From an uncultured Candidatus Saccharibacteria bacterium (GTDB taxonomy: Bacteria > Patescibacteriota > Saccharimonadia > Saccharimonadales > Saccharimonadaceae), in NCBI GenBank assembly GCA_945873065.1, contig CAMCBN010000001.1, forward strand, positions 62,001 to 126,000: 64,000 nt of DNA, in the 5' to 3' direction. Within the stretch, counting starts at the first letter, position 1, and every line of letters begins with the position of its first letter. Both the position numbers and the translations under genes were made by a program. The notes below the pieces were generated by a model, which was not told the origin of the DNA, made no database searches, and was given only the letters and a program-made list of their open reading frames with translations. This document shows, piece by piece, positions 3,291 through 8,255 of the stretch.

Positions 3291-3354
3291 AACGAACCTC
3301 CTTTAGGTCGGCAGCCGATTATCGCGTCACCGACCACCAAATTTTAATATAAAT

Positions 3355-3500
3355 ACAAAAAGCACGCAATCGCCTCTCACGTGCGTGCCTCGGTCCTGAA
3401 AGATCAGGAGGTTCCACCTCGGCTATTACTCTTGCTCCGGCTGATATCGTGCGCCGCAACCGCTTCCACGTAAGCTCGAGAGATGGTTAGACTCTGTCAC
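3355..3500 (-). promoter_or_regulatory. Putative T-box leader of thrS (antiterminator plus terminator)
   Basis: RNA sense: GCCGAGG-UGGAACC-UCCUGA-UCUU-UCAGGA-CCGAGGC (T-box bulge UGGAACC), followed by GCACGCA...UGCGUGC-UUUUU terminator, then thrS. Confidence 0.7.
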
Positions 3501-3678
3501 TGCTTATACTCTATTGTATACCGCACCAGACACTGTGGCAATCTTACCATGTGTTATAATAAGTATAAGTGGACACTTATCAGCCTACCAAATTGGCTCT
3601 GCTTGTATCGAGAAACTTTCGATATTATTTTTCGGCTGTCTTGCCCTACTCATATTATTCTGTTACAATGTGGGGCAC

Positions 3679-3755
3679 GGGCGATTAGCTCATTTGGCTA
3701 GAGCGCTTCATTGACGTTGAAGAGGTGAGAGGTTCGAATCCTCTATTGCCCACCA
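3679..3755 (+). tRNA. tRNA-Val(GAC)
   Basis: Full cloverleaf GGGCGAT/ATTGCCC, anticodon loop TTGACGT, TTCGAAT T-loop, encoded CCA. Confidence 0.97.
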
Positions 3756-8179: not shown

Positions 8180-8255
8180 TGGAGCCGCTGACCGGACTTG
8201 AACCGGTGACCTACGCTTTACGAAAGCGCCGCTCTACCAGCTGAGCTACAGCGGC
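8180..8255 (-). tRNA. tRNA-Thr(CGT)
   Basis: GCCGCTG...GCGCT-TTCGTAA-AGCGT...TTCAAGT...CAGCGGC-T-CCA; discriminator U73. Confidence 0.97.

Follow-up and report, generated by a model that had tools for sequence, protein, structure and literature searches.

Features of the thrS leader

The window, by which we mean the whole stretch of 64,000 nucleotides analysed, carries on its minus strand a thrS gene preceded by a structured leader made up of stem I, a pseudoknot, a second hairpin, a linker, an antiterminator and an intrinsic terminator (Table 1). A promoter-like site ends about 7 bases 5' of the first helix, and stem I to the end of the U-run spans about 150 nt. As this site lies just before the first helix, the transcript probably starts with stem I. 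A TTGCAA...TATNAT-like site was also noticed by eye 5' of stem I in relatives. A tRNA-Val(GAC) gene (3679-3755) lies divergently upstream of the leader, an arrangement common to many relatives.

Table 1. Features of the thrS leader and of a tRNA gene discussed with it, in positions of the window
Feature	Position	Strand	Basis or remark
Promoter-like site: TTGCCA (3541-3536), 17 nt spacing, TACAAT (3518-3513)	3513..3541	-	consensus scan
Stem I, 36 nt	3471..3506	-	covariation
Stem I basal helix, AAGC with GCUU	3505-3502 with 3475-3472	-	covariation
Stem I 3-nt bulge AGU and GA opposite GA, k-turn-like	3501-3499; 3498-3497 opposite 3477-3476	-	sequence
Stem I 4-bp stem, AGAG with CUCU	3495-3492 with 3482-3479	-	covariation
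Stem I 9-nt apical loop, UCUAACCAU	3483..3491	-	
Specifier codon ACC (Thr) in apical loop	3485..3487	-	ACN here in 31/31 related thrS leaders
Pseudoknot 5' strand CGU	3468..3470	-	pairs with ACG in 29/29 aligned leaders
Pseudoknot 3' strand ACG, inside second-hairpin loop	3448..3450	-	covariation
Second hairpin, outer pairs GUU...AGC	3434..3460	-	covariation
Linker AAGAGUAAUA, stem III absent	3424..3433	-	alignment of type A leaders
Antiterminator	3387..3423	-	A1 and A2 covariation
Antiterminator helix A1, GCCGAGG with CCGAGGC	3423-3417 with 3393-3387	-	
Antiterminator helix A2, UCCUGA-UCUU-UCAGGA	3409-3394	-	
T-box bulge UGGAACC	3410..3416	-	invariant in thrS-leader family alignments
Intrinsic terminator GCACGCA...UGCGUGC-U5	3357..3388	-	
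Ribosome-binding-site-like AAAGGAGG	3297..3304	-	
thrS, threonine--tRNA ligase, 603 aa	1479..3290	-	NCBIfam TIGR00418, 608.9 bits vs cutoff 383.65
tRNA-Thr(CGU), U73	8180..8255	-	fits bulge; anticodon not complementary to ACC

The base of stem I carries a 3-nt bulge together with GA opposite GA, which was observed at the sequence level in nearly all aligned leaders and which is predicted to form a k-turn. The apical loop mostly takes the form NNYAACNRN across the leaders. The second hairpin occupies the position of the stem IIA/B region, as judged from the Rfam alignment of a type B relative (types A and B are defined below). The antiterminator, its UGGAACC bulge and the GCACGCA/UGCGUGC-U5 terminator were found on the minus strand just as an earlier, sequence-only reading of this DNA had described them, and the 5' side of the terminator shares about 5 nt with the 3' strand of A1 when pairs into the U tract are counted.

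An Rfam scan of the window returned tRNAs only, the leader matching no RNA family, and single-sequence folding gave the leader an energy unremarkable against chance (z = -0.59). The case therefore rests on the relatives of this leader.

Conservation and covariation among related leaders

The thrS gene was located in 60 of 61 genomes of the same family, and UGGNACC was observed in the same setting before thrS in 31 of the 50 related leaders examined. No T-box-like element was found in the other 19, so that the T-box is not universal among related thrS loci. The 31 leaders fall into type A (n=12, with the window included) and type B (n=19).

The helices were recovered by an unguided scan of all column pairs. 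In type A the named structure is paired in 99.3% of cells with 35 two-sided changes against 9.4 in shuffles, and in type B in 97.3% of cells with 71 against 21.9, where slid controls reached at most 46% pairing. Both the covariation among related thrS leaders and the conservation of UGGAACC and of the competing hairpins in related genomes had been put forward as checks; the former lies above shuffles in both types and the latter is strong. A T-box-type transcription attenuator before thrS, as first proposed, is thus supported by the comparison of related leaders. The reduced stem I suggested at that time is likewise backed by covariation.

Our alignments show that the CGY/RCG pairing of the pseudoknot is retained through UA to CG exchanges in four leaders. 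The loop codon was observed to be ACC in 24, ACG in 4 and ACU in 3 of the 31 leaders, its third base being variable. The hairpin finder behind the 31/31 count searched for ACN, and a codon-blind test was run separately (see below). Most type B leaders carry a stem III with the flanks AAGUG and AA, and RRRNG-stem III-AA is a motif of known T-boxes (PMC7583486, PMC7778990). Stem III is absent from four type B leaders and from type A, including the window; by this comparison, type A has lost it.

A terminator is present in 29 of 31 leaders, where its 5' side usually shares about 5 nt with A1. The terminator scan found none in the L026 and L050 leaders. In L026 the T-box domain of the thrS leader lies near the ribosome-binding site and might control translation.

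Match to tRNA anticodon and discriminator

The UGGA of the bulge is complementary to the UCCA 3' end of tRNA-Thr. The genome of the window holds three tRNA-Thr genes (GGT, TGT and CGT), all with U73, so the complementarity first noticed for the gene at 8180-8255 extends to two others. The pairing of that tRNA with this leader, as first suggested, holds for U73 and the bulge and fails for the anticodon, CGU against an ACC specifier. Given the conserved ACC, the expected partner is tRNA-Thr(GGU), encoded elsewhere in the genome, and not the tRNA-Thr(CGU) of the window. A tRNA-Lys(UUU) gene of this genome (L055 1498-1574, G000:C1) also ends in UCCA; U73 alone therefore cannot single out tRNA-Thr, and the codon must do so.

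We noticed that the variable base of the bulge changes with the downstream gene. All 81 Thr leaders have A, all 6 Val leaders and the Ala leader have U, and the Ser and Asp leaders have C. These Val, Ala, Ser and Asp bases agree with the tRNAs of the window's genome, where tRNA-Val and tRNA-Ala have A73 and tRNA-Ser and tRNA-Asp have G73. The glyS leaders carry UGGA (the L149 core is UGGAACC) and so predict a tRNA-Gly with U73. This base was observed in all eight glyS-leader genomes in which the tRNA was found; tRNA-Gly has A73 in the window's genome. Among 13 ileS leaders the bulge was UGGU in eight, UGGA in four and UGGC in one, and tRNA-Ile has A73 in the seven genomes yielding one. Five of the 13 (L142, L146, L180, L183 and L211, with UGGA or UGGC) thus mismatch the A73 of tRNA-Ile, and UGGA ileS leaders in A73 genomes would carry a discriminator mismatch.

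Distribution across the phylum and other synthetase genes

A model made from type B sequences alone (R2), without the window or any type A leader, matched the window leader at E=2.7e-10 as its sole match in that genome of 0.85 Mb. It had matches in 112 of 295 genomes at family level and in 41 of 334 at phylum level. A further model of 81 sequences with the window included (R3) matched 97 of 381 phylum genomes at E up to 0.01, where about four matches are expected by chance; its specificity was judged by E-values and by the fact that nearly all matches precede synthetase genes. The lineage that shares this small T-box is probably the Patescibacteria; by its size and by the many small-genome families of the phylum, the window's genome resembles Saccharibacteria within it. 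No further T-box was found in the window's genome, other R1 matches having E of 4.6 or more, and a search of a phage collection gave no match. A second R3 match (L224, E=0.07) was rejected as it lies within a coding region and has no UGGNACC.

Downstream of R3 matches thrS predominates, followed by glyS, ileS and valS; serS, alaS and aspS occur once each. The synthetase identity of representatives was confirmed with NCBIfam. The loop codon follows the gene, Gly leaders showing GGC or GGA, Ile leaders AUC, Val leaders GUC, and the Ser, Ala and Asp leaders AGC, GCC and GAC, respectively. An earlier codon test with one fixed offset gave 70 of 121. Because the codon lies 1 or 2 nt from the stem, the test was repeated with both offsets on GA/GA hairpins, a rule that was picked after the first result was known and by which shuffled labels were scored identically. 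The codon-blind picker uses pairing and GA motifs only and allows loops of 7-11 nt. It recovered the cognate codon in 72 of 85 cases (label shuffles: mean 39.5, maximum 49, n=5000). Many thrS leaders are closely related, so that these cases are not independent, and the non-Thr cases form the stronger test, with the cognate codon in 21 of 24 (shuffles: mean 7.4, maximum 14).

The smallest elements, of about 87 nt, were observed in the thrS leaders L166 and L172 (G646 and G591). Each consists of a k-turn hairpin whose 7-nt loop holds ACC, a short linker and the antiterminator, without a second hairpin or stem III. In L118 (1501-1620), a leader with the Thr codon ACU precedes two non-synthetase genes (1666-2785) whose products have 196 aa, without an NCBIfam match, and 173 aa; from this locus, the regulon may extend past the synthetases. 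A small gene lies between T-box and synthetase in L175, L187, L174, L199, L223 and L143; that of L187 encodes a GNAT-like protein, and in L143 a gene resembling 3-methyladenine-DNA glycosylase lies downstream of an Ile T-box.

Proposed mechanism and alternative readings

When the 37-nt antiterminator domain is folded in isolation, the antiterminator is the MFE fold. With the downstream sequence added, the terminator fold has an MFE of -25.6 kcal/mol against -25.4 kcal/mol with the antiterminator forced, the two being nearly equal. From their overlap, the terminator is expected to exclude the antiterminator.

We consider it very probable, from the comparison of sequences, that the leader is a reduced T-box riboswitch controlling thrS by transcription attenuation. 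Comparison among relatives establishes the helices, the pseudoknot, the codon, the discriminator match and the competing terminator. For tRNA binding, charge sensing and the direction of the response we infer the following by analogy with the known biochemistry of T-boxes. The anticodon of tRNA-Thr(GGU) would pair with ACC in the apical loop of stem I. If this tRNA is uncharged, its 3' UCCA would pair with the UGGA of the bulge and hold the antiterminator; as the terminator needs the 3' strand of A1, it could not then close, and thrS would be transcribed. With threonine-charged tRNA the bulge would stay unfilled, the terminator would form and transcription would stop. When threonine-charged tRNA is low, the cell would therefore make more synthetase.

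Charge sensing by a copy without stem III would be the weakest step of this mechanism, and here the strongest of the alternatives applies, namely that type A leaders are relics that bind tRNA-Thr without telling its charge, so that thrS would track the total tRNA level or would merely be attenuated. Stem III has been described as indispensable for charge sensing in canonical T-boxes (PMC7583486), and the window shares its absence with four type B leaders. However, leaders without stem III retain the bulge, A1 and A2 and the overlapping terminator, with compensatory changes, which suggests that these leaders still switch, and we regard a charge-blind leader as improbable.

Still less probable is control by the synthetase itself. 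In E. coli, ThrRS represses thrS by binding an operator that mimics the tRNA-Thr anticodon arm, and the present leader also stands before thrS and displays a Thr-related triplet in a hairpin. Yet what its loop displays is a codon (ACN) rather than an anticodon, six other synthetases are preceded by the same scaffold with another codon, UGGN tracks the discriminator, and a terminator lies downstream.

The sequence-only reading had placed the specifier at ACG (3469-3471) in a hairpin GCUU-ACGUGG-AAGC read by the tRNA-Thr(CGU) of the window. The window does contain this sequence as well as the tRNA gene, and ACG does encode Thr, but the proposal is hardly credible. The hairpin is not conserved, and most type A relatives (GAGC-ACGUGG-GAGC) are unable to fold it. 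In relatives UCG or CCG replaces the ACG triplet, which overlaps a strand of the pseudoknot, where CGU pairs with the conserved ACG with UA exchanged for CG. GCUU belongs to the basal helix as its 3' strand and pairs with AAGC farther 5'. Every thrS leader, moreover, has a Thr codon as its apical-loop triplet, and this triplet tracks the gene. Leader-peptide attenuation was considered briefly; the leader has one conserved Thr codon, located inside a structured loop.

Significance of the reduced form

Most of the T-boxes found in a 2008 survey belonged to Firmicutes and Actinobacteria, a few to Chloroflexi, Deinococcus and Proteobacteria (PMC2494555). In the open-access literature, where coverage is incomplete and an earlier description possible, no paper joining T-boxes with Patescibacteria, CPR or Parcubacteria was found, and a review of Patescibacteria does not mention T-boxes. 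Transcriptional T-boxes generally need an elbow-binding arm (PMC7583486), and tRNA binding is augmented by this arm or by the S-turn of stem II (PMC10482949). The thrS and glyS forms appear, from their sequences, to have neither. What would be new is the lack of an elbow arm, and in thrS and glyS of an S-turn stem II, in elements that are followed by a transcription terminator and that come down to about 87 nt.

We think it rather likely that the phylum widely uses minimal transcriptional T-boxes that need no elbow arm to work and whose thrS and glyS forms also dispense with an S-turn stem II. In that case L166 and L172, with one hairpin, a linker and an antiterminator, would be near the least RNA that can read both anticodon and charge. 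In the present data T-boxes are frequent in a phylum whose members have very small genomes, and this wide distribution bears on the age of T-boxes. The thrS and glyS forms make the smallest working tRNA sensor a question that is open to direct test on short RNAs.

Relation to known T-box classes and other systems

A search with RF00230, which had been suggested as a check, gave no match in the window even at E up to 10. Among the relatives it matched leaders of serS, valS, ileS, aspS, glyS, alaS and two type B thrS genes, with 28.8 to 55.5 bits (best E=1e-9), and over all relatives scored the range was 26.6 to 55.5 bits, all below the gathering cutoff of 93 bits; with scores under the standard Rfam cutoff, routine annotation would miss the T-boxes of the phylum. 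In the RF00230 alignment of L022, a type B thrS leader, the ends of stem I, the IIA/B region, the flanks of stem III and the T-box occur in order, and about 75 distal stem I positions are shrunk to 8. In addition, the ileS relatives have a stem II with S-turn-like letters. Inspection by eye revealed no such stem II in the thrS leaders of types A and B; the glyS forms show none either. The elbow-binding double T-loop arm is absent from the 36-nt stem I of the window with its 9-nt loop, and a stem III with RRRNG and AA flanks is absent from the window and the type A leaders.

The features shared with T-boxes are A1 and A2 around the 7-nt UGGNACC bulge, a specifier matched to the gene, the GA motif, a competing terminator and, for Thr and Gly, the complementarity of UGGN to discriminator and CCA. 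The order of parts in the Rfam alignment of L022, together with the S-turn-like stem II of ileS, speaks for shared ancestry with parts lost, not for convergence. Judged by sequence, the leader is a T-box variant by descent that stands outside classes I, II and III, since a search for the elbow-binding arm and for the S-turn stem II found neither.

The thrS translational operator of E. coli resembles the window leader in that each is an autoregulated leader of thrS and holds a triplet in the loop of a hairpin. It differs in that its ligand is the ThrRS protein and its loop imitates an anticodon, whereas tRNA is the expected ligand here and the loop holds a codon. With T-boxes of class I and II (B. 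subtilis tyrS and glyQS; RF00230) the present leaders share transcription attenuation, UGGNACC, the order of stem I, IIA/B region, stem III, antiterminator and terminator and, in type B relatives, the RRRNG-stem III-AA flanks; they differ by the missing distal part of stem I and, in the window copy, by the additional absence of stem II and stem III. The class III T-box (Nocardia farcinica ileS) shares a short stem I without the elbow arm, a k-turn, the UGGN bulge domain and a specifier within the short apical loop of stem I. Class III T-boxes have an apical loop of 5-6 nt, need the S-turn stem II and are mostly translational (PMC10482949), whereas the window leader combines a 9-nt loop and no S-turn stem II with a transcription terminator downstream.
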